A DNA stretch of 64,000 bases, taken from positions 2,656,001 through 2,720,000 of the forward strand of contig CP073261.1 in NCBI GenBank assembly GCA_019739335.1, read 5' to 3'. Under the pieces are notes generated by a model. It ran no database searches. It was not told the DNA's origin and saw nothing but the letters and a program-made list of their open reading frames with translations. This DNA is from Erythrobacter sp. (lineage in GTDB: Bacteria; Pseudomonadota; Alphaproteobacteria; Sphingomonadales; Sphingomonadaceae). Position 1 is the first letter of the stretch; every line of letters begins with the position of its first letter. Made by a program: the position numbers and the translations under genes. Shown here piece after piece: positions 1 to 56,707 of this stretch.

Positions 1-1078
1 GCAACCGCAGCTGTCCGGTGCTTTCGGGCCTGCGGAACTGGGAGCAATCGAGCGTGAAGTCCGCCTTGCCCAGCCCCGCGCGGCGGCAGGCGAGGCGGAA
101 GCGGGCGCGGAACAGGTCGGCCCAGACCCCGGTGGGCCTCATCCGTGTGTGGAAATCCGGATCGTTGTCCCGCCCACCACGGATCGATTGAACGATGGCC
201 ATCACCTTCCCCGCGCGTTCGGGGAAATGCACTGCCAGCCATTCGCGGAACAGCGGCGCAACTTCGTGCGGTAGGCGCAGAGGTATCCAGCCGCAACTTT
301 GCACGTCCATCGCTGCGGCTCGGGTGACGATCTCCTCCATGAATTCATCGGTGATGGCGGGGATGATCGGCGAGATCGAGCAATGCACTGGCACCCCTGC
401 GCGCGCCAGTTCGCCCAGCGCGGCAAGCCGCTTGGCCGGGGCGGCGGCGCGCGGTTCCAGCTTGCCCGAGAGGATCGGGTCGAGTGAGGTGACCGAAATT
501 GCCACCGCGACCAGCTTGTGCCGGGCCATCTCGGCCAGGAGATCGAGATCGCGCAGCACCCTGTCCGACTTGGTGGTGATGGTGACCGGATGGCGGGTTT
601 CCAGACACACCTCCAACAGCTGCCTAGTGATGCGGTAGCGGTTCTCGATCGGCTGGTAGGGATCGGTGTTGGTGCCCATCGCCAGCGGCTGCGGCACGTA
701 CCTAGGCTTGGCGAAGGTTTTGCGCAGCAGCCGCGCGGCATCGGGTTTGGCGAACAACTTGGTTTCGAAATCCAGCCCGGGCGACAGGTCATGATAGGCG
801 TGCGTAGGGCGCGCGAAGCAGTAGACGCAGCCATGCTCGCAACCGCGATAGGCGTTTACTGAACGGTCGAAGGGAATATCGGGAGATTGGTTGAAACTGA
901 GGATCGTTTTGGGATGTTCCTCGGTTACCGTGGTGCGCAACTTGGGCGGTGCGCCGTCGAGTGCCTCCATGGCGTCGCGCCAGTCGTCGTCCACCGCGCG
1001 TTCAGCCAGCCCGAACCGCTGCGGCACCATGGCCGATTGGGCACCCCGGCCCCGAACAGCACTTTCTGGCTTGCGCAT
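1..1078 (-). CDS. PA0069-like radical SAM protein (3' end outside window)
   Basis: An open frame runs on the minus strand from an ATG at 1078 to the left window edge without a stop, giving 359 codons; the C-terminus is missing. The start reads MRKPESAVRGRG. Residues 80-87 (CEHGCVYC) form the CxxxCxxC cluster that binds the radical SAM 4Fe-4S centre, and FARPTHAYHDLSPG follows, as in the family named after Pseudomonas PA0069, related in layout to spore photoproduct lyase. The family's reaction is not established. It is divergent from the VOC gene with about 50 bp between starts. The family call is firm from the motif; the function is unknown. Confidence 0.85.
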   Translation of the reverse strand, partial: MRKPESAVRGRGAQSAMVPQRFGLAERAVDDDWRDAMEALDGAPPKLRTTVTEEHPKTILSFNQSPDIPFDRSVNAYRGCEHGCVYCFARPTHAYHDLSPGLDFETKLFAKPDAARLLRKTFAKPRYVPQPLAMGTNTDPYQPIENRYRITRQLLEVCLETRHPVTITTKSDRVLRDLDLLAEMARHKLVAVAISVTSLDPILSGKLEPRAAAPAKRLAALGELARAGVPVHCSISPIIPAITDEFMEEIVTRAAAMDVQSCGWIPLRLPHEVAPLFREWLAVHFPERAGKVMAIVQSIRGGRDNDPDFHTRMRPTGVWADLFRARFRLACRRAGLGKADFTLDCSQFRRPESTGQLRL

Positions 1079-8159: not shown

Positions 8160-10016
8160 ATGCCCGCCTACCGTTCCCGCACTTCCACCCACGGCCGCAA
8201 CATGGCGGGCGCGCGCGGGCTTTGGCGTGCCACCGGCATGAAGGACGGCGATTTCGGCAAGCCGATCGTCGCGATCGTCAACTCCTTCACCCAGTTCGTG
8301 CCCGGCCATGTGCACCTGAAGGATCTCGGCCAGCTGGTCGCCCGGCAGGTCGAGGCGGCGGGCGGCGTGGCCAAGGAATTCAACACCATCGCCGTCGATG
8401 ATGGCATCGCGATGGGGCATGACGGGATGCTCTATTCGCTCCCCAGCCGCGACCTGATCGCCGACAGCGTGGAGTATATGGTCAACGCCCACTGCGCCGA
8501 TGCGATGGTGTGCATTTCCAATTGCGACAAGATCACGCCGGGAATGCTGATGGCGGCGATGCGGCTGAACGTGCCGGTGGTGTTCGTTTCCGGCGGGCCG
8601 ATGGAAGCGGGCAAGATCGTGCTGAAGGGCAAGGAAGTCGCGCTAGATCTGGTCGACGCGATGGTGGCTGCGGCGGACGAGCACTATTCGGACGAGGAAG
8701 TGGCCGAGATCGAACGCTCGGCCTGCCCTACCTGCGGTTCGTGCTCGGGCATGTTCACCGCCAATTCGATGAATTGCCTGACCGAGGCGCTGGGCCTGTC
8801 ACTCCCCGGCAATGGCTCGCAGCTCGCAACCCATTCGGACCGGCAGGGCCTGTTTGAGCGGGCGGGGCGGCTGGTGGTGGCACTGGCCAAGCGGTATTAC
8901 GAAGAGGACGATGCCTCTGTCCTGCCGCGCTCGATTGCCAGCTTCCAGGCGTTCGAGAATGCGGTGAGCCTCGATATTGCGATGGGCGGATCGACCAACA
9001 CCGTGCTCCACCTGCTCGCCGCCGCGCACGAGGCGGAAGTCGAGTTCACCATGGCCGATATCGACCGGTTGAGCCGCAAGGTGCCGTGCCTGTCGAAAGT
9101 CGCCCCGGCCAAGAGCGACGTCCACATGGAAGACGTCCACCGCGCGGGCGGGATCATGGCGATCCTCGGCGAGCTGGACCGCGCGGGGCTGCTGCACACG
9201 GCGCTGCCCACCGTCCACAGCCCGACGATGGGCGATGCGCTGGACGATTGGGATATTGTCCGCACCGGCAATCCCAAAGTGCACGAATTCTACAAGGCCG
9301 CCCCCGGCGGGGTGCCGACGCAGACCGCCTTCAGCCAGTCGCGCCGCTGGGACGCGCTCGATCTGGATCGCGCAAACGGGGTGATCCGCAACCGCGAACA
9401 CGCCTTCAGCCAGGATGGCGGGCTGGCAGTGCTCTATGGCAATATCGCCCGCGACGGCTGCATCGTGAAGACGGCGGGCGTCGATGAAAGCATCCTCAAG
9501 TTTTCCGGCCCCGCCAAGGTCTACGAAAGCCAGGACGCGGCAGTGGAAGCGATCCTTGCCGATGAGGTAGTGGCGGGTGACGTAGTGGTGATCCGCTACG
9601 AAGGGCCGAAGGGCGGCCCCGGGATGCAGGAAATGCTCTACCCCACCAGCTACCTCAAGTCGAAGGGGCTGGGGGCGCAATGCGCGCTGCTGACCGACGG
9701 ACGCTTTTCCGGCGGCACCTCCGGATTGTCGATCGGCCATGTCTCTCCCGAAGCGGGCGAGGGCGGGGAAATCGCGCTGGTGGAGCCGGGCGATCTGATC
9801 GAAATCGACATTCCCAATCGCAGCATCAACCTGATGATTTCGGACGAGGAATTCGCCCACCGCCGCGCGGCGATGGAAGCGCGCGGCGCCTCCGCGTGGC
9901 AGCCCACCGAACATCGCCCGCGCAAGATAACGCCCGCTTTGCAGGCCTATGCCGCGATGACCACCAGCGCCGCGCGCGGCGCGGTGCGCGATGTCTCGCA
10001 GGTGCTGGGCAAGTGA
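8160..10016 (+). CDS. ilvD: Dihydroxy-acid dehydratase
   Basis: 618 aa, typical of the long IlvD class. It dehydrates 2,3-dihydroxy-isovalerate and -methylvalerate in valine, isoleucine and leucine synthesis, and contains an iron-sulfur cluster. Ligand motifs visible: [13 protein letters not shown] near residue 120 and [19 protein letters not shown] near residue 192. The C-terminal half has [20 protein letters not shown], the swivelling-domain signature. Start [18 protein letters not shown] matches the family. It is followed by a lipoprotein gene that overlaps its stop. Confidence 0.97.
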
Positions 10017-10339
10017 GGTTGCTGGTCCTGCTTCTTGCTCTTGGCGTCGCAGCCTGCGGTGAAGCCGAGGCGGGGGCCGACACCACGCCGGTTGAATGCG
10101 CTTTGGGCGGATCGGCGGCCTTCGCGCCCGATTGCACGATGGAACGCGCCGAAGTGGACGGCCAGCGCACCGTGATCGTGCGCCATCCCGATGGCGGGTT
10201 CCGCCGCTTCGAACTGGGCGTGCCCGAGCGCGGGATCATCACCGCCGACGGCATGGAGCAGGCCGATGTCACCCGCAGCGAAGGAATTATCGAGCTGCGC
10301 GTGGGGGCGGACCGTTACCGCCTGCCTGTCGCTGACTAG
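10013..10339 (+). CDS. Small lipoprotein of unknown function
   Basis: 108 aa. The GTG at 10013 overlaps the ilvD stop (GTGA). The N-terminus [20 protein letters not shown] is a lipoprotein signal peptide with a VAAC lipobox, Cys at about residue 15. The mature part is about 93 residues, has one further Cys pair candidate (ECAL and DCTM) and ends with predicted beta strands ([17 protein letters not shown]). No family was recognised. Position after ilvD looks like an operon of convenience rather than a pathway link. Confidence 0.75.
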
Positions 10340-10343
10340 GCCC

Positions 10344-11738
10344 ATGCGCGAACCACAACAGATCCTCACCGCCGCGCAGATGCAGGAGGCGGAGCAAGGC
10401 CTGATTACCAATGGGGCCAGCGTCTCCAGCCTGATGGAGCGCGCGGGCGCGGGCGCGGCGGAATGGGTGTGGCGGATCGCTGCGGGTCGCGCGGTTACGG
10501 TGCTCTGCGGTCCCGGCAACAATGGTGGCGATGGCTATGTTATTGCACGCGTTTTGCGTGATCGCGGGCTGGCCGTACGGATCGTCGCTCCGCTTGAACC
10601 CAAGACCGAAGCGGCGATTGCCGCGCGCCGGGCCTGGGGCGGGGAGCCGGTCGCGACGGCGCATGGCGCGGTGCTGGTCGATTGCCTGTTCGGCACCGGC
10701 CTCGGCCGGCCGCTCGATGACGATCTGCTCGGCCTGCTGCGCAAGCTGTCGTCAACCCACCAGCACGCCGTGGCGGTGGACCTGCCCAGCGGGGTGGACA
10801 GCGATAATGGCGAATGCCTCAATCCCGGCCTGCCGCGCTATGACCTGACGCTGGCGCTCGGCGCATGGAAATTCGCCCACTGGCTGATGCCGGCGATGGA
10901 CACGATGGGCGAAAAGCGGCTGGTGGATATCGGTGTCGGCAAGGTGGCGGGGGCGGCACGGCTTTCGACGCCGCCGGTGCTCGGCCTGCCGCCGCGCAGT
11001 GCGCACAAGTATTCGCGCGGGCTGCTGGCGGTGGTGGCGGGCGTGATGCCGGGTGCGGCAATCCTCGCGGCGCAGGCGGCGCAGCACGGCGGTGCGGGCT
11101 ATGTGAAGCTGTTCGCGGGCGAGGAGGACGACGATCTCGAAGGGCCGCCCGATCTGGTGGTCGATCACGGATCGCTGTTTGATCTGGTGCGCGATGAACG
11201 GATCGCTGCCTTCCTCGTCGGGCCGGGTCTGGGACGCAGCAACGAGGCGCAGGCGCGGCTCGACTGGGTGCTGGCCTGCGACTTGCCCACAGTCTGCGAT
11301 GCCGATGCGCTGTCGCTGCTCGAACCCTCGATGCTCGACGGGCGCAGCCAGCCGATCATTGCCACGCCGCACGCGGGTGAACTGGATGCGATGGCCAATG
11401 CTTTCGGCACGGTCGGGCTGGACCGGGCCGAGCAGGCGCAGGAACTGGCCGAAGGCATTGAAGGCGTGCTGGTGGCCAAGGGGCCGGATACGCTGATCGC
11501 CGCCGAGGGATCACCGCTGTCGGTGATGCCGCCCGCCACAAGTTGGCTGAGCACGGCGGGAACCGGCGATGTGCTGGCAGGGCTGATCGCCAGTCGTCTT
11601 GCCACCGGAGTCGGCCCGCGCAAGGCCGCCGAGCAGGGCTGCTGGCTGCATGCCGAAGCCGCGCGGAAGGCGGGGCCCGCGTTCTCGGCGGGTGAACTGA
11701 TCTACCATGTTCCAGATGCTTACGGGGCATTCCTGTGA
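10344..11738 (+). CDS. Bifunctional NAD(P)H-hydrate epimerase / ADP-dependent NAD(P)HX dehydratase
   Basis: 464 aa two-domain protein that repairs damaged (hydrated) nicotinamide cofactors. The N-terminal epimerase domain (about 1-205) has LCGPGNNGGDGYVIAR and VAVDLPSGVDSD. The C-terminal ribokinase-fold dehydratase domain (about 215-464) has YSRGLLAVVAGVMPGAAIL, ATPHAGELDAMA and the nucleotide-binding STAGTGDVLAGLIA. The fusion is the common bacterial arrangement. It begins four bases after the lipoprotein stop and its own stop overlaps the following gene (GTGA). Confidence 0.95.
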   Translation: MREPQQILTAAQMQEAEQGLITNGASVSSLMERAGAGAAEWVWRIAAGRAVTVLCGPGNNGGDGYVIARVLRDRGLAVRIVAPLEPKTEAAIAARRAWGGEPVATAHGAVLVDCLFGTGLGRPLDDDLLGLLRKLSSTHQHAVAVDLPSGVDSDNGECLNPGLPRYDLTLALGAWKFAHWLMPAMDTMGEKRLVDIGVGKVAGAARLSTPPVLGLPPRSAHKYSRGLLAVVAGVMPGAAILAAQAAQHGGAGYVKLFAGEEDDDLEGPPDLVVDHGSLFDLVRDERIAAFLVGPGLGRSNEAQARLDWVLACDLPTVCDADALSLLEPSMLDGRSQPIIATPHAGELDAMANAFGTVGLDRAEQAQELAEGIEGVLVAKGPDTLIAAEGSPLSVMPPATSWLSTAGTGDVLAGLIASRLATGVGPRKAAEQGCWLHAEAARKAGPAFSAGELIYHVPDAYGAFL

Positions 11739-12937
11739 GCGAAGCCGAAGAGATCCTGCGCATTGCGGCGAAGGGCGATGGGGCTACCGCCAGCGGTCGC
11801 CACGCTGCCTATGCAGCGCCGGGTGACACGCTGCTGGCCGATGGTTCGGTGCAGCCGGGGCCGCACCACGCTACCCCGCCGTGCCGCCATTTCGGCACCT
11901 GCGGCGGGTGCCAGTTGCAGCATTGCGACGAACCTTCGCTCGCGCAGTTCGTGCGCGAGCGGGTGGTGTTCGCCGCGCAATCGCAGGGACTGGACCCGCG
12001 CCTGGTTGCCGAGCCCGCCATGTCCCCGCCGCGTTCGCGCCGCCGGGCGAGCCTGAAGGCGATCAGTTCGGGCGGCAAGCCGCTGGTCGGGTTCAACGCG
12101 GCAGCATCGCACAAGGTGATCGACCTGGCCGAATGCCATGTGCTGCTGCCCGAATTGTTCGCGCTGATTGCCCCGCTGCGCCGTTATTTCGCCGCGCTCA
12201 AGGGGCGGCATGCGATCGAGATCGAGCTGGCGCGGGTCGATCAGGGAGTCGACTGTGGGCTCAAGGGCTTCATGCCCGAAGGGCTGGCGCAGACCGAGAA
12301 CCTGCTCGATTTCTGCCGTGATCATGGGCTGGCGCGGCTGACGCTGGATCATGGTTATGGTGCTGAAGGGTTCTGGGAGCCGGAGCCTGTGACTGTGACG
12401 TTAGGAGGCATTGCGGTGGCCTATCCGACCGGGGCTTTCCTGCAAGCCACCCATCATGGCGAGGCGGCGCTGGTAGGGGCGGCGCACGAATGGCTGGCGG
12501 ACTGTACTCAGGTGGCGGACCTGTTCTCCGGCCTCGGCACCTTTGCTTTGGCATTGGCTGGCGGAGGCAAGGTGCTGGCTGCGGAAGCGGACCGGACGGC
12601 GCATCTCGCCTGCCGCAGCGCTGCCAATTCCGCCCGCCTGCCGGTGGAAGCCGTCCACCGTGATCTGTTCCGCAACCCGATGCGCGCCGAGGAGCTGGCG
12701 GGCTTCGACGGCGTGCTGCTCGATCCGCCGCGTGCCGGTGCGCGCGAGCAGATCGAACAGATTGCCGCGAGTGGCGTGGGCCGGGTGGTCTATATCAGCT
12801 GCAATCCGTCGAGCTGGTCGCGAGATTCCGCCACATTGGCGGCGGCAGGATACGAATTGGCGGAACTGCGTCCGGTGGGGCAATTCCGCTGGTCAACCCA
12901 TGTCGAGTTGGCGAGCTTGTTCGTAAAGTCGGCTTGA
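11735..12937 (+). CDS. TrmA/RlmD-type class I SAM-dependent RNA (uracil-C5)-methyltransferase
   Basis: 400 aa. GTG start overlapping the preceding stop. The N-terminal part has CRHFGTCGGCQLQHC (residues about 50-64), the 4Fe-4S motif of RlmC/RlmD enzymes. The methyltransferase core has VADLFSGLGTFALALA (SAM site), LLDPPRAG and YISCNPSSWSRD, where the Cys is the uracil nucleophile. Such enzymes methylate C5 of specific uridines in 23S rRNA or tRNA; which position cannot be decided here. No N-terminal TRAM domain of full length is evident, so the protein is shorter than Escherichia coli RlmD. Confidence 0.9.
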   Translation: MSEAEEILRIAAKGDGATASGRHAAYAAPGDTLLADGSVQPGPHHATPPCRHFGTCGGCQLQHCDEPSLAQFVRERVVFAAQSQGLDPRLVAEPAMSPPRSRRRASLKAISSGGKPLVGFNAAASHKVIDLAECHVLLPELFALIAPLRRYFAALKGRHAIEIELARVDQGVDCGLKGFMPEGLAQTENLLDFCRDHGLARLTLDHGYGAEGFWEPEPVTVTLGGIAVAYPTGAFLQATHHGEAALVGAAHEWLADCTQVADLFSGLGTFALALAGGGKVLAAEADRTAHLACRSAANSARLPVEAVHRDLFRNPMRAEELAGFDGVLLDPPRAGAREQIEQIAASGVGRVVYISCNPSSWSRDSATLAAAGYELAELRPVGQFRWSTHVELASLFVKSA

Positions 12938-50420: not shown

Positions 50421-52679
50421 CTAATTCGGCTCTTCGTCCACGAAGTGATGCCAGACCACATGCGCCCGGATGCCCGAGGAGCTGGTGATTTCGCTGAAGC
50501 GCGCGTAGTCGCCAGCTGAGAAGGCCGCGGTTGCTCCGGCGATGTCACCTTCCCCTTCGAGAAGGACGATGGCCACCCAACTCTCGCGATCCAGTTGCCA
50601 CCCGGCATCGACCTTATAATAGCCGGGAGACTGACGGAATCGCGGCGGGAGAACGGCCTGGAGCTGATCCGCCGCCTGGAAGGTCACTTCCTCCTCGCCG
50701 AGAAACATCAGACCTATTTGCGCTGTATCGTCGAGGCGGATCTCGAAAGTGAACCGTGCGCCGATTTGCCCTGCCAGGGTGGTTTCGGGATCGTCAGCAG
50801 GAAAGCGCTGCAATTCCGATTGGCGAAGTGTCTGAGTCAGCACGGTGCTGTCGGTTACGCGAAGGGGGTGCAGGGCGTTGATGTAAGGGCAATTGCCTTG
50901 CGACACCGGTTCGACGCCAGAGAAGCTGGTGCTCACCCCTCCGCCTTGCAATGCTTCGAACACCGCTGGTTCAATCACGGCTGGTTGCCCTGCAATCCCG
51001 CTCGCATTCAGGACCAGTGCTCCCGGAGCGCCGGTGGTGGAGAGATCGAGCCAATGGCAATCCAGACCGGAAAGAGCGGCTTCGGCGCGCTGAAGGGCAG
51101 TCGCAGCATCGAGCGCACTCGCTGCCACTGCACCATTACTTTCGTTTTCGCCGCTACCGGGCGCCCCACCACCGCCGAAGGCGATGTAGCCAAGGCCCGC
51201 CAGCAACAGCACCCCCAGCAGCGCACCGCCGCCTATGAGTGCGGGGCGCGGGATCGATCCGCCGCCGATACCGTCGAGCATCCCGGCCAGGCCGCCGCCG
51301 GCTTTACTGGTATCCTGCTTGTCTCCGCCGCGCTGGTTTTTCGCGGCAATTCTGCCCCCGGCACTCATCGTGTCGAGCATGGCCACCACGTCCTTCATCG
51401 ATCGCAGGCGCTTGGCCGGATCGTAGGTAAGCATGGCATCGAACAGCGGCCTTAGTCCCGGTGGAGAACGCGAGGTGTCGACCCCCTCCTTGCGCTTCTC
51501 CATCGCTTCGAACATCGACTTGCCAAGTTTCAGCGTCTCGCCCTGTGCCAGTCCGAGCAACACGAGGCCAAGGCTGTAGACATCGGTCCACGGCCCGACA
51601 TCGCCTTCGAATGCGCCCAGTTGTTCCGGCGCGACAAAGCTCAGCTTGCCCGCGAAGCCGGTGCCGATCACGGTTTTCGAACCGGGATCGATATCGCGGG
51701 CGATGCCGAAATCGATGATCTGCGCGCGATCCAGATCGCCGCCTTCGAGCAGGATGTTGTCCGGCGCGATGTCCCGGTGGATCGCGCCCAGCGCATGGGC
51801 TGCGCCAAGGCCCTCGGCAAGGCGGCGGGCCATCGAGATGATCTGCGCATCGGTCGGCTGCACCTTGCCGATCACGCTTTCGAGGCTATTGCCGTCGATG
51901 AAATTGGTGACGATGTAGAACACGCCCGCTTCGGGATCGCGCGCTTGGGTGCGGTAATTGACAAGCGCAGGATGCACGAGCCGTTCGAGTACGGTGGCTT
52001 CCTTGACGAACATCTCGATAACGTTCGGATCGCTGGCAAGCGATGGCAGGATAACCTTCACCGCCACGCGCTGTGCATTGGTGACGTTGAAGCCTTCGAA
52101 CACCTCACCCATGCCGCCGCGCGCAATGAAGCGTTTGATTTCATAGGTATGGTTCAGGACTTGCCCGATGCTGATGCCCGACAGGAGCTTGGGCGGCGGT
52201 TCGCTGGGCGCAGGTGAAGGTGGGGGCGGGGGCGGGGCGGGCTTGGCAAGGCCAGCACCGGGATCGATGATGGTACGGTCGAACCCTTCACCATCCGAGG
52301 CCGAGATTTGCGGGCCGGGGGCAATGACGGTGCGCTCGTCTTCAGTATCGTCGTCAGCCCGGTCTGATGCGGGCGCGGCGATCGGCGCGAACACGGTGCG
52401 CTCGTCCTCTTCGTCCCCCTCATCGTCGTCTTGCGATGTAACTGCTGCAGCGGGACCGGGGCGAATTACAGTACGACCATCGTCATCGTCATCGTCATCC
52501 GCACCGACTGCTTCCTCTGGCGTGCCCTCATTTTCGCTCTCAATCTCGCCGAAGGACTGCTCGGGAATGGCATCTACGGTTTCGGGCTCGATTTTGTCAG
52601 GAATCTCAACCGCTGGATCGTCATCCGGCGCTTCGATATGCTCCTTCTCGTCATCGGTATCCTTTTCGCCAGCGTTCAC
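50421..52679 (-). CDS. Ser/Thr protein kinase with N-terminal RTVI-type repeats and C-terminal periplasmic domain
   Basis: 752 aa. Residues 1-165 are acidic and disordered, with four repeats: RTVIRPGP (69), RTVFAPIA (94), RTVIAPGP (116) and RTIIDPGA (135), then a Pro-rich linker. The kinase domain is about 179-438: ARGGMGEVFEG loop, Lys208 (VAVKVI), catalytic HRDIAPDN (Ala305 where Lys is usual), DFG at 323 and APE at 350. One TM at about 481-502; the C-terminal 250 residues lie outside the membrane and are of unknown fold. Its ATG overlaps the phosphatase stop (ATGA). Confidence 0.92.
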   Translation of the reverse strand: MNAGEKDTDDEKEHIEAPDDDPAVEIPDKIEPETVDAIPEQSFGEIESENEGTPEEAVGADDDDDDDGRTVIRPGPAAAVTSQDDDEGDEEDERTVFAPIAAPASDRADDDTEDERTVIAPGPQISASDGEGFDRTIIDPGAGLAKPAPPPPPPSPAPSEPPPKLLSGISIGQVLNHTYEIKRFIARGGMGEVFEGFNVTNAQRVAVKVILPSLASDPNVIEMFVKEATVLERLVHPALVNYRTQARDPEAGVFYIVTNFIDGNSLESVIGKVQPTDAQIISMARRLAEGLGAAHALGAIHRDIAPDNILLEGGDLDRAQIIDFGIARDIDPGSKTVIGTGFAGKLSFVAPEQLGAFEGDVGPWTDVYSLGLVLLGLAQGETLKLGKSMFEAMEKRKEGVDTSRSPPGLRPLFDAMLTYDPAKRLRSMKDVVAMLDTMSAGGRIAAKNQRGGDKQDTSKAGGGLAGMLDGIGGGSIPRPALIGGGALLGVLLLAGLGYIAFGGGGAPGSGENESNGAVAASALDAATALQRAEAALSGLDCHWLDLSTTGAPGALVLNASGIAGQPAVIEPAVFEALQGGGVSTSFSGVEPVSQGNCPYINALHPLRVTDSTVLTQTLRQSELQRFPADDPETTLAGQIGARFTFEIRLDDTAQIGLMFLGEEEVTFQAADQLQAVLPPRFRQSPGYYKVDAGWQLDRESWVAIVLLEGEGDIAGATAAFSAGDYARFSEITSSSGIRAHVVWHHFVDEEPN

Positions 52680-53440
52680 AGCCAGTCTCCCGGCTTGTCG
52701 CCGATCTTCAGGATGGTCGTCTCCTGCGCCTGCACAAGCACTAGCGTAACGTTATCCGGCGCGCCGCGTTCAAGGCACATTTTCACCAGTGTCTCGGCGG
52801 CTTCTTCGAGGTCGTCGGCCTCTTCGAGACACCGGGCTATTTCGGGTTCCTTGACCGGGCCGTAAAGTCCATCGCTGCACAGCAGGAAGACATCGTCGCT
52901 CTGCACCTGGTCTTGCACCATGCCGATTCCGAAATTGTTCTCGATCCCGACCGCGCGGGTCAGCACGTTGCGCAGTTTATGGGTCTCGGCATCGGCCTCG
53001 CTCAGCAGGCCGCTATCGACCATTTCCTGCACTTGGCTGTGATCCTTGCTCAGGCGGTGCAAGCTGCCGTCCCGCCACAGGTAGGCGCGGCTGTCCCCCA
53101 CCCATAGCACACCAAAAATGCCGTCCCGGACCAGGAGGGAAACAATCGTACTGCCCATTTGCTCGCCGGTTTGCTCGGACTGGCGGGCAATGGCGGAATT
53201 GGCCGACTCAATGGCCTGGCCCAACTGGGTGACGGCTTGTTCCAGGTCGCCCTGTAAGGTCAGCGAGCGCAGGGTTTCGGCGATTTTCTCTGCGGCCCAG
53301 TCGCCGCGCGCCATGCCACCCATGCCGTCTGCCACCGCCCACAGGCGCTGCTCGTCATCCGAAAAATACCGGTCCTCGTTGAGTTCGCGCACCGAACCGA
53401 CATCGGTTGCCGCGAAGGATTCCGTCCGAAGATCCACCAA
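52676..53440 (-). CDS. PP2C-family Ser/Thr phosphatase
   Basis: 254 aa. Metal-binding motifs in order: VRELNEDRYF, WAVADGMGGMARGD, LWVGDSRAYLWR, LCSDGLYG and GAPDNVTLVLV. It dephosphorylates Ser/Thr residues and is the natural antagonist of the kinase downstream; the two overlap by four bases and form an operon. It is soluble, with no TM. Divergent from the M23 peptidase gene. Confidence 0.94.
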   Translation of the reverse strand: MVDLRTESFAATDVGSVRELNEDRYFSDDEQRLWAVADGMGGMARGDWAAEKIAETLRSLTLQGDLEQAVTQLGQAIESANSAIARQSEQTGEQMGSTIVSLLVRDGIFGVLWVGDSRAYLWRDGSLHRLSKDHSQVQEMVDSGLLSEADAETHKLRNVLTRAVGIENNFGIGMVQDQVQSDDVFLLCSDGLYGPVKEPEIARCLEEADDLEEAAETLVKMCLERGAPDNVTLVLVQAQETTILKIGDKPGDWL

Positions 53441-53554
53441 TCGAAATCCTTCCCCCCAGTTTCAATTGGCGATACTATGCGATTAATCTGGGCTGGGGCA
53501 ACAGGCGGCGGCATTTTCGTAGCCTTGCGATGCAAGAAAGGGGGGATAGCGGCA

Positions 53555-54934
53555 ATGGCCAGCGTGGCACCGGTCCAGTCATACGACCCGCGCGCATGGG
53601 CACGGGCGTGGGAAACGGCACGCGCGGCGCAAGCTGCGGCTACCCGGCCGAAGGCCGCTGTGGTGGAGGGAGTGCCGAAGCCGCTGCTGATTGGCGGTGG
53701 CCTGCTGCTCGCGGCACTGCTGGCGGTGGCAATCTGGTTCTTTTTTATGCGCACCGACGGCGACGCGATCGAAGGCGATGCCAACGTGGCGGAACTGCAG
53801 GAGGCACTTGCGGAGGCGCCGCCTGGGATTACCCGTACTTTCAGGCTGTCCGATATCGGCGAATTGCAGGCCTCGCTCACCGCCTCGGGGCTCGATCCCG
53901 CGCTGGTGCAGCAGATCGTGGCGGGTGCGGCCCCCTACTTCGCCCCCGGAGAGCAGGTGCGCGGCACACTCGACTTCCTGATCGGGGAAGGCGAAGCCTT
54001 GCAGTTCTCGCGTATCGACCTGCGCAAGCAGGACAGTTCGGGCGTGGCGATGGCGATGGCGGACGGGCAGCTATCGATCTCGCCGATCTCTTCGCAATTG
54101 ACCGAACAGATTTTCGTCCGCAGCGGGAAAATCGACGAAGTCAGTCTCTACACCTCGGTACTCGCCGCAGGCATGCCCAACACCCTGATCGACGATTTCT
54201 TCGAAGCACTTGCCTTTGACTTCGACTTCGCGCGTGAAATCGAATCCAACGATGCCTTCGAGATCGCCTACCGCCAGACGGTGAATGACGATGGAGAGCC
54301 TGTAGGTGCGCCGGTACTGGTCTATGCATCGATGACCACACCCTCACGCACTGCCAACGTCTATCGTTTCGTCGATGAGGACGGCGAGCCGGCCTGGTTC
54401 GATTCGAGCGGGCAGAACATCCAGCGCGCGCTGATGCGTACCCCGGTGGACGGGGCGCGTATCAGTTCTGTTTTCGGGATGCGGCATCACCCGATCTACA
54501 ATCGTTCGCGCCTGCACGGAGGAGTGGACTTTGCCGCACCAACCGGGACATCGATATTCGCTTCGGGTTCAGGAGTGATCGAAGTTGCGAGCTGGGCACC
54601 AACGGCAACGCGGGGCAACGGCAGCTATATTGCCATCCAGCACGATAGCGGGTTTCGTACGCTGTATCTGCATATGAGCGCTTTTGCGCCCGGTATTGCT
54701 GTGGGTGAGCGGGTAGAGCAGGGGCAGGTAATCGGTGCGGTCGGCTCCACCGGCGGATCGACCGGCCCGCATTTGCATTACGAGGTTCATCTGAATGGCG
54801 AGAAGCTGGATCCGATGACAGTGCAGGGTTCGGATGAGCGTAATTCTCTTACGGGCGACTCGCTGCAGGAGTTCGAAAATGTCCGCGATGAAATCGATCT
54901 GGGGCGTCAACTGGCGGTGCAGACAGCAGCGTAA
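53555..54934 (+). CDS. M23 family metallopeptidase (LytM), membrane anchored
   Basis: 459 aa. One TM at about 50-70 (LLIGGGLLLAALLAVAIWFFF) after an Arg-rich cytoplasmic part. The C-terminal M23 domain has metal ligands in LHGGVDFAAPTG (H and D) and GPHLHYEVHLNG (HxH). The zinc peptidase cuts peptidoglycan cross-bridges or activates amidases when degenerate; here all ligands are present, so it may be active. The preceding domain resembles the OapA/LysM-like insertion of MepM. The start at 53555 follows GGGGGGAT; an in-frame start at 53477 is unlikely. Confidence 0.92.
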   Translation: MASVAPVQSYDPRAWARAWETARAAQAAATRPKAAVVEGVPKPLLIGGGLLLAALLAVAIWFFFMRTDGDAIEGDANVAELQEALAEAPPGITRTFRLSDIGELQASLTASGLDPALVQQIVAGAAPYFAPGEQVRGTLDFLIGEGEALQFSRIDLRKQDSSGVAMAMADGQLSISPISSQLTEQIFVRSGKIDEVSLYTSVLAAGMPNTLIDDFFEALAFDFDFAREIESNDAFEIAYRQTVNDDGEPVGAPVLVYASMTTPSRTANVYRFVDEDGEPAWFDSSGQNIQRALMRTPVDGARISSVFGMRHHPIYNRSRLHGGVDFAAPTGTSIFASGSGVIEVASWAPTATRGNGSYIAIQHDSGFRTLYLHMSAFAPGIAVGERVEQGQVIGAVGSTGGSTGPHLHYEVHLNGEKLDPMTVQGSDERNSLTGDSLQEFENVRDEIDLGRQLAVQTAA

Positions 54935-55101
54935 TGTCGCGTTTATACAAAAACGACTGTAATATATGGCATTTTTACCGTCCCAAGATGCGCCATAGTC
55001 CGACATCGCCGGTTCATCTGCTTGCTGGCATGACCCGATTGCTGTATAAATACTTTCGTAATCTCGCCGTAGCGGGATGTTGCCGATTTGGGGGAATGAA
55101 A
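54935..55101 (+). promoter_or_regulatory. AT-rich leader upstream of OmpA-family gene
   Basis: 167 bases, clearly richer in A+T than the rest of the window, between the M23 gene and the first OmpA gene. It contains the promoter described at 55022-55050 and two more TATA-like stretches (about 54948-54976). No coding sequence was seen. Confidence 0.6.
55022..55050 (+). promoter_or_regulatory. Putative sigma-70 promoter
   Basis: TTGCTG (55022-55027) and TATAAA (55045-55050) are separated by exactly 17 bases, matching the housekeeping consensus closely for this GC-rich organism. It lies 52 bases before the OmpA-family start. Confidence 0.6.
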
Positions 55102-55863
55102 ATGAAGCGCTTTTTAGCTAGCTCATGCTTGGCCATGCTGGCCGTGGCGTCCACCGCCGCTGCTGCGCAGGATGAGGACATTCCGCGCGAGGTCGTCGAT
55201 GCCTTCATCACCGGCGGCTCCATCGTGGCTTCGGGCGATTCTTCGGGTGGCGAATGCCAGCCTACTTCGGATGAAGAATATATGCGCACCGGACAGGAGA
55301 CGATCTGTGCCGAGCGCAATACGGTGGTCTTCCTCGGCGGCAACACCACTCGAAACACTCCTGCTCCTGCTCCTGCTCCGAGGCGGCCGACAGCTTCGCC
55401 TGCGCCCACGCCTGTGGCAACTCCGCGTCGTCCAACCACCCCGGCCCCTGCTCCGCGCCCGATCGCCATTCCCGAGCGTTGTGCCCCGAGCCAGAGCGAG
55501 GCGCTCAACATGTGCCTGACTTTCGGTCTCGGTTCGTCCGAATTGACCGACCGCGCCAGGAGCCAGATCCGCGTCTTCGCTGAAAGCATGCTCGCCAATC
55601 AGTCGACCGAGCGGTTCGTGATCGCCGGGCATACGGACACCAGTGGCGACGAAACGCGCAATTGCGAACTGTCGCAGGCGCGGGCCGATAGTGTGGTTGC
55701 GTTCATGGTCGGACTGGGCGTGTCACCCAGCCAGGTGCAGGCGGTAGGCTTTGGCCAGCAGGCCCTGCAGGATGGCATCCCGGCCAATGACCCGCGCAAC
55801 CGTCGCGTCGAAATCGTGCGCGGTTCCGCCGAGACGGGTGCCGGGCAATCCTGTACAGGTTGA
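55102..55863 (+). CDS. OmpA-family protein, paralogue 1
   Basis: 253 aa. Signal peptide MKRFLASSCLAMLAVASTAAA. The mature N-terminal part has EVVDAFITGGSIVASGD and TICAERNTVVFLGG, then a Pro/Ala/Thr-rich linker (about 90-130), then the OmpA_C peptidoglycan-binding domain: FVIAGHTDTSGDETRNCELS and NRRVEIVRGS. Cys residues occur in pairs (ERCAPS/NMCLTF). It should tether the outer membrane to the wall. The second ATG is used because GGGGGA lies 6 bases upstream; the first ATG at 55096 abuts it. A close tandem copy follows. Confidence 0.93.
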   Translation: MKRFLASSCLAMLAVASTAAAAQDEDIPREVVDAFITGGSIVASGDSSGGECQPTSDEEYMRTGQETICAERNTVVFLGGNTTRNTPAPAPAPRRPTASPAPTPVATPRRPTTPAPAPRPIAIPERCAPSQSEALNMCLTFGLGSSELTDRARSQIRVFAESMLANQSTERFVIAGHTDTSGDETRNCELSQARADSVVAFMVGLGVSPSQVQAVGFGQQALQDGIPANDPRNRRVEIVRGSAETGAGQSCTG

Positions 55864-55972
55864 AGCGGGGACCTGGATCCTTCGCCGGACCGTCCAGGCC
55901 TCGGATAACGACATCCCGTCTTTAGCTGGCGATTGCGCGCCAGATAGACCAAACTCCGTTAGGGGAACAGAT

Positions 55973-56707
55973 ATGGATCGCTTTCTAGCAAGCTCGTGCA
56001 TGGCCATAGTGGCATTCGCTTCGGGTGGCGCGGCTGCGCAGGATGCCGACCTCCCGCGGGAAGTTGTCGATGCTTTCATCACTGGCGGCTCGATTGTCGC
56101 GTCTGGCGAGACTGTCGGCGGGGACTGTCAGCCTGCATCGGACGAAGAAGTCGTACGCACCGGACAGGAAACGATCTGCGGGGAACGCAATACCGTGGTG
56201 TTCCTTGGTGGCGCCACCACCCGCAATGCCCCCGCCGCTGCCCCGCGCCCGGCGGCTGCCCCGCGCCGTCCGGCCACTCCCGCAGCGACCTCGCGCCCAC
56301 GCTCGGTCGCGATTCCGGAACGCTGTGCTCCCAGCCAGAGTGAAGCGCTCAATATGTGCCTGACCTTTCGCCTCGGTTCGTCCCAACTCACCGAACGCGC
56401 GCGGAGCCAGATCCGCGTGTTCGCCGAGTCCATGCTCGCCAACCAGTCGACGGAGCGGTTCGTCATCGCTGGTCATACCGATGTGACGGGGACCGAAACC
56501 CGCAATTGCGCCTTGTCGCTGGCAAGGGCGGAAAGCGTCGTCGACTTCATGGTCAGGCTTGGTGTTTCGGAAAGCCAGTTGCAGGCGGTGGGCTATGGCC
56601 AACAGAACCTGCAACCCGGAGTCCCCGCTACCGATGCGCGCAATCGCCGCGTTGAGATCGTGCGCGGTTCCGCCGAAGCGGGCGCTGGGCAATCCTGCAC
56701 ATCCTGA
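55973..56707 (+). CDS. OmpA-family protein, paralogue 2
   Basis: 244 aa tandem copy of the preceding gene. Shared stretches include EVVDAFITGGSIVASG, RTGQETIC, CAPSQSEALNMCLTF and SMLANQSTERFVIAGHTD. The linker is shorter (about 90-115) and Ala/Arg-rich. Signal MDRFLASSCMAIVAFASGGAA. AGGGGAAC precedes the ATG. Genes are 109 bases apart, so a separate promoter is possible. Role as for paralogue 1; difference in linker length may set the span across the periplasm. Confidence 0.93.
   Translation: MDRFLASSCMAIVAFASGGAAAQDADLPREVVDAFITGGSIVASGETVGGDCQPASDEEVVRTGQETICGERNTVVFLGGATTRNAPAAAPRPAAAPRRPATPAATSRPRSVAIPERCAPSQSEALNMCLTFRLGSSQLTERARSQIRVFAESMLANQSTERFVIAGHTDVTGTETRNCALSLARAESVVDFMVRLGVSESQLQAVGYGQQNLQPGVPATDARNRRVEIVRGSAEAGAGQSCTS

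Follow-up and report, generated by a model that had tools for sequence, protein, structure and literature searches.

A type VI secretion-linked PpkA-like kinase in Erythrobacter carries four TssL-like motifs in a tail that may recruit Fha

A Ser/Thr kinase and a PP2C phosphatase encoded side by side in Erythrobacter sp. appear to be the PpkA/PppA pair of a type VI secretion system (T6SS), and the kinase carries, in an acidic tail ahead of its catalytic domain, four copies of a motif that also occurs near the N terminus of TssL. The pair lies in the 64,000-nucleotide stretch of DNA analyzed here ("the window"; positions 2,656,001 to 2,720,000 of contig CP073261.1). Comparative sequence evidence strongly supports the membership of both proteins in the T6SS PpkA pathway. 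We put at roughly 60% the probability of a fuller reading, in which the kinase of this pair would autophosphorylate its TssL-mimicking tail and so recruit Fha multivalently.

The kinase (Table 1) retains the Hanks-type catalytic residues (HRD, DFG, APE, and Lys) that are invariant in the kinase alignment, and a hydropathy scan gave a peak, at residues 481–499, for one predicted transmembrane (TM) helix. For the predicted periplasmic domain (window 50424–51182; ∼250 residues), AlphaFold2 gave a confident model (pLDDT 88.6) that combines an alpha/beta unit with a beta-sandwich; two Cys residues of the domain are conserved. At E ≤ 0.001, nothing in the PDB matched it, and its homologues gave no more than a single weak DUF4384 match. 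Identity as a PASTA/Stk1 kinase (the PknB equivalog) was rejected, as NF033483 scored 144.6 bits against a cut-off of 450 and matched over the kinase part only. The stop codon of the PP2C gene overlaps the GTG start of the kinase by 4 bases—bearing out the pairing proposed in an initial annotation made from the letters of the window—and the two genes adjoin in most homologous loci too. Against NCBIfam Stp1_PP2C_phos the phosphatase scored 217.7 bits, below the cut-off of 230.

Table 1. Positions in the window of the kinase, its parts and motifs, and the neighboring genes
Feature	Position	Strand	Details
PpkA-like Ser/Thr kinase ORF	50421..52679	-	752 aa, GTG start; Pfam Pkinase 1.1e-32; T6SS synteny and co-occurrence
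Acidic disordered N-tail of kinase	residues 1-168		
Kinase domain	residues 179-426		
TM helix	residues ~481-499		
Predicted periplasmic domain	residues ~506-752		
Activation-loop segment KTVIGTGFAGK	51645..51677	-	residues 335-345; Thr in same T[VI][IV] context as tail motifs
Motif 1, RTVIRP	52458..52475	-	R69, Thr70
Motif 2, RTVFAP	52383..52400	-	R94, Thr95
Motif 3, RTVIAP	52317..52334	-	R116, Thr117
Motif 4, RTIIDP	52260..52277	-	R135, Thr136
PP2C-family phosphatase (PppA-like)	52676..53440	-	Pfam PP2C 6e-16
M23 peptidase	53477..54934	+	adjoins kinase/PP2C/T6SS genes in G174 and G164

The four copies of RT[VI][IF]xP fall within residues 69–140 of the kinase, with Thr-to-Thr spacings of 25, 22, and 19. 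The initial annotation had described four repeats 19 to 25 residues apart in an acidic, disordered tail; the number and spacing are thus confirmed, as is the character of the tail, in which acidic residues outnumber basic ones by 50 to 11 and the AlphaFold2 pLDDT is below 50 almost throughout (i.e., predicted disorder), while its position has to be corrected to the N terminus, before the kinase domain. A chance origin of the repeats is ruled out by tail shuffles and by the genome-wide pattern. When the tail was shuffled 200,000 times with its composition preserved, one copy arose in 79 cases and at least two copies in none. In the crudely called ORFs of the window and the T6SS cluster (31,221 residues), the four kinase copies and the TssL copy are the only five occurrences of the strict motif. 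A DNA search of the entire 3.22-Mb contig for RT[VI][IF]xP with CGN Arg codons returned 18 matches, 7 of them in frame with the longest ORF spanning the matched bases: two of these have no acidic context, and the in-frame acidic motif is found genome-wide only in the kinase (4) and TssL (1). Recent tandem duplication of DNA is also rejected, because the codons differ among the four copies. Within the motif, the hydrophobic +1/+2 residues and the Pro at +4 are conserved; the residue at pT+3, which is often the main specificity position for FHA domains, varies (R, A, A, and D in the kinase copies; Q in TssL). The activation-loop Thr lies in a T/S[VIL][IVL]G context in all 38 of the 38 kinases read, as would fit a kinase that accepts such a context.

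Where might a partner for these motifs be encoded? The initial annotation's remark that the window holds no FHA or secretion gene is literally true, but a T6SS cluster with FHA proteins ends only 1.35 kb before the first base of the window (the end of FhaB is at genome position 2654653 and the window starts at 2656001). This one cluster encodes TssA, TssE, TssF, TssG, TssH, VgrG, a TagH-type FHA protein, TssK, TssL, TssM, and a second FHA protein, along with an Hcp-like protein that scores below its family cut-off and, upstream, two tandem VipB/TssC matches (L051 ∼9724–12153; genome 2633724–2636153). The genome search for FHA proteins that had been suggested as a check gave one clear Pfam FHA match on the single 3.22-Mb contig, 2 kb before the window, and the cluster there encodes two FHA proteins. 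The TagH-type protein, FhaA (537 aa; L002:3818-5431), scored 177 bits against TIGR03354 (cut-off 120), while FhaB (283 aa) scored 90 bits, below that cut-off, and matched Pfam FHA at 1.7e-18. All three canonical phospho-Thr-binding residues (Arg, Ser, and Asn) are present in FhaB. In the FhaA of the window's clade, GASRR or GSSRR replaces the usual Gly-Arg, a change that may affect its phospho-Thr pocket; FhaB is thus the likelier reader. The N terminus of TssL reads MMADEPEEERTVFQPGG; its acidic RTVFQP motif is like those of the kinase tail, with ERTVFQP at residues 9–15, ahead of the DotU domain, and conforms to an Agrobacterium-type T-V-[VIF] site. Because TssL bears a motif identical in type to those of the tail, the kinase tail looks like a TssL mimic.

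Co-occurrence and synteny tie the kinase to this secretion system. A strong kinase homologue (E ≤ 1e-74) is present in 11 of 150 genomes of the family Sphingomonadaceae, spanning 9 genera. Every one of these 11 also has a DotU/TssL match, vs. 1 of the other 139 (Fisher P = 8e-16, uncorrected for phylogeny). Within the genus, G179 and G186 have both kinase and TssL, and G172 and G180 have neither a strong kinase homologue nor TssL. Two other congeners, G174 and G164, keep the order M23–PP2C–kinase–FhaB–TssM–TssL–TssK–FhaA unbroken, with the FhaB gene as the neighbor of the kinase. The window genome has the same genes in the same orientation, but 51.8 kb separate the 3′ ends of the kinase and FhaB. 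This intervening block (genome 2654654–2706420; approximately window 1–50420) includes release-factor-2-like and aspartate-semialdehyde-dehydrogenase (asd)-like genes and is therefore more suggestive of a rearrangement of the chromosome than of a mobile element. No clean empty site could be read in the congeners that lack the T6SS, where matches to the flanking M23 gene are only ∼36–38% identical. The T6SS regions of G179 and G186 hold an M23 gene 36–44% identical to that of the window, and we tentatively assign the M23 peptidase to the T6SS-linked system. Two tandem genes for OmpA-like paralogues follow it in the window (54934–56707), and both G174 and G164 have matching genes at the corresponding position.

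How far is the motif conserved among homologues? Nearly all matches to [RK]TV[IVF]xP in homologous T6SS regions lie at the N termini of the kinase and of TssL. The initial annotation had staked its proposal on conservation of the repeats, and they are kept: four copies in G174, whose kinase is 57% identical and whose copies align in register with those of the window kinase; three in G179, G186, and L066; two in Sphingomonas sp. Leaf9 and S. pseudosanguinis; and usually one in the tails of the family as a whole, a few of which have none. The Thr is retained in every copy compared between the window genome (G000) and G174. In G164, the tail is mostly a run of N, and the last copy (DRTIIEP) alone is visible. 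Multi-copy tails fall in separate places on the kinase-domain tree and, to judge by the sequences, arose several times. An apparently independent origin is seen outside the class, where the tail of a T6SS-associated kinase (L239:904-3975) has four KT[VI]F sites (KTVFRKP, KTVFAP twice, and KTIFSP) as well as two TRF[AS]P sites, and the TssL of the same genome bears a like site. A tail is absent from most T6SS kinases of Rhizobiales and Rhodobacterales and hence is not essential to the pathway; most TssL proteins of these two groups carry the motif or a close form.

Several elements of this arrangement recur in described systems. The PpkA/TagF-PppA/Fha/TssL system of Agrobacterium likewise belongs to an alphaproteobacterial T6SS and combines a kinase, a PP2C phosphatase, an FHA protein, and a TssL with an N-terminal TV[VI] Thr (PMC3953482). 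In A. tumefaciens, phosphorylation of TssL Thr14 (DLPTVVEI) requires PpkA, and the FHA domain of Fha binds the DLPpTVVEI phosphopeptide but not its unphosphorylated form, the affinity being weak (Kd 0.5–1.6 mM) (PMC3953482). The Agrobacterium acceptor is thus one site, with Pro before the Thr, whereas the motif here is [RK]T[VI][IF]xP and four copies are on the kinase; PppA, too, is fused to TagF there and encoded by a separate gene here. Partners of Fha other than phospho-TssL have been suggested from work on A. tumefaciens (PMC5995506). The TssW-PpkA-Fha system of Acidovorax citrulli resembles the proposed one in that PpkA is a condensate-forming scaffold for Fha and TssL, with catalysis aiding Fha binding: PpkA binds both proteins and PpkA droplets recruit both, loss of catalytic activity weakens the binding of PpkA to Fha, Fha foci form only with an active kinase, whether or not the functional site of Fha can accept phosphate, and active PpkA promotes T6SS assembly (PMC12607579). 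This system differs in that the functional site tested was Thr640 of Fha. The results with dead PpkA and with Fha foci are as expected if PpkA autophosphorylation docks Fha. The available portions of the two reports describe no TssL-like kinase tail for A. tumefaciens (PMC3953482) or A. citrulli (PMC12607579). The PpkA/PppA/Fha systems of the Pseudomonas aeruginosa H1-T6SS and of Serratia share with ours an inner-membrane kinase with a periplasmic sensor domain and a PP2C phosphatase; their known phospho-acceptor, however, is Fha, their periplasmic domains differ between species, and we found no description of a motif tail on either PpkA in the literature, as far as its texts were available. 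In mycobacteria, a phospho-Thr of the kinase PknB docks the FHA-domain partner GarA, as proposed here, but there docking takes place at the activation loop, GarA regulates metabolism, and no secretion system is involved. Searches of the open-licence full-text literature for the motif strings found no T6SS paper and only one, unrelated, plasma-proteome paper.

We infer tail phosphorylation and FHA docking from these sequence relationships. The predicted periplasmic C-terminal domain would sense something in the periplasm, and the kinase, like others of its family, would autophosphorylate its activation loop. It would then phosphorylate the [RK]T[VI][IF]xP Thr of TssL, as in Agrobacterium, and also the four Thr residues of its own N-terminal tail. 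The phosphorylated tail would dock the FHA domains of Fha/TagH multivalently. Fha would thereby accumulate at the membrane kinase ahead of, or during, its transfer to phospho-TssL, whereupon T6SS assembly would start. The PP2C phosphatase would oppose phosphorylation of the tail and TssL. This phosphatase reset is the weakest step, since PppA overexpression left TssL phosphorylation unchanged in A. tumefaciens (PMC5995506). The original idea of kinase repeats that dock FHA partners thus fits a T6SS with two FHA proteins, a TssL motif, and kinase–TssL co-occurrence, but it had missed both the PpkA/PppA/Fha/TssL pathway and the motif on TssL.

The same motifs could instead make the tail a decoy. 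Once phosphorylated, it would titrate Fha away from TssL or compete with TssL for the active site, with the number of copies setting a threshold or negative feedback. We regard this as unlikely: the tail motif is the same as that of TssL, and copy number varies from lineage to lineage as expected of a tunable buffer, but kinase-active PpkA in A. citrulli furthers both the formation of Fha foci and assembly of the T6SS (PMC12607579). The commonest tails, moreover, are single-copy and would buffer poorly. Less probable again is the absence of any phospho-switch, with the motifs binding unphosphorylated partners (the kinase active site, as a pseudosubstrate, or TssM, TssL, or baseplate proteins) and the tail serving as a tether or for autoinhibition. 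Such roles are common for acidic disordered linkers that carry short motifs, and the hydrophobic +1/+2 and the Pro at +4 are conserved while pT+3 is not. Yet the Thr is kept in register in every copy compared between G000 and G174, and in Agrobacterium the phosphorylated Thr of the matching TssL site has been mapped and is recognized by an FHA domain (PMC3953482). That the genes encode a general envelope-stress kinase–phosphatase pair unrelated to the T6SS, the shared motif being a coincidental common kinase consensus, is very improbable and is rejected on co-occurrence and synteny: the two genes do lie 51.8 kb from the T6SS genes and among housekeeping genes, but TssL accompanies the kinase in 11/11 genomes, T6SS genes adjoin the pair in congeners and most homologues, and the motif is confined genome-wide to TssL and the kinase.

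A broader and decidedly more speculative proposal is that T6SS kinases may repeatedly have evolved multi-copy TssL-mimic tails, with the autophosphorylated kinase seeding a multivalent Fha assembly, perhaps a condensate, ahead of TssL engagement and copy number tuning firing. How PpkA activity recruits Fha is a gap posed by the results from A. citrulli (PMC12607579) and A. tumefaciens (PMC5995506). The Fha ligand missing so far would, for these lineages, be the autophosphorylated kinase, and the short motif could serve for sequence-based searches for PpkA targets in Alphaproteobacteria. Across Proteobacteria, the TssL motif was rejected as a strong indicator of a kinase encoded nearby: the loose motif showed a modest association (P = 0.004), and that of the strict form was not significant. 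The window genome also encodes a second Ser/Thr kinase, of 627 aa (G000:C1:2952723-2953478; L003, L032), with LLPTVVAPTP and DEITQVVIG between its kinase domain and TM helix. Of 40 genomes of the genus, three were found to have this kinase type, and they are the very three with the window clade's motif-tailed kinase.
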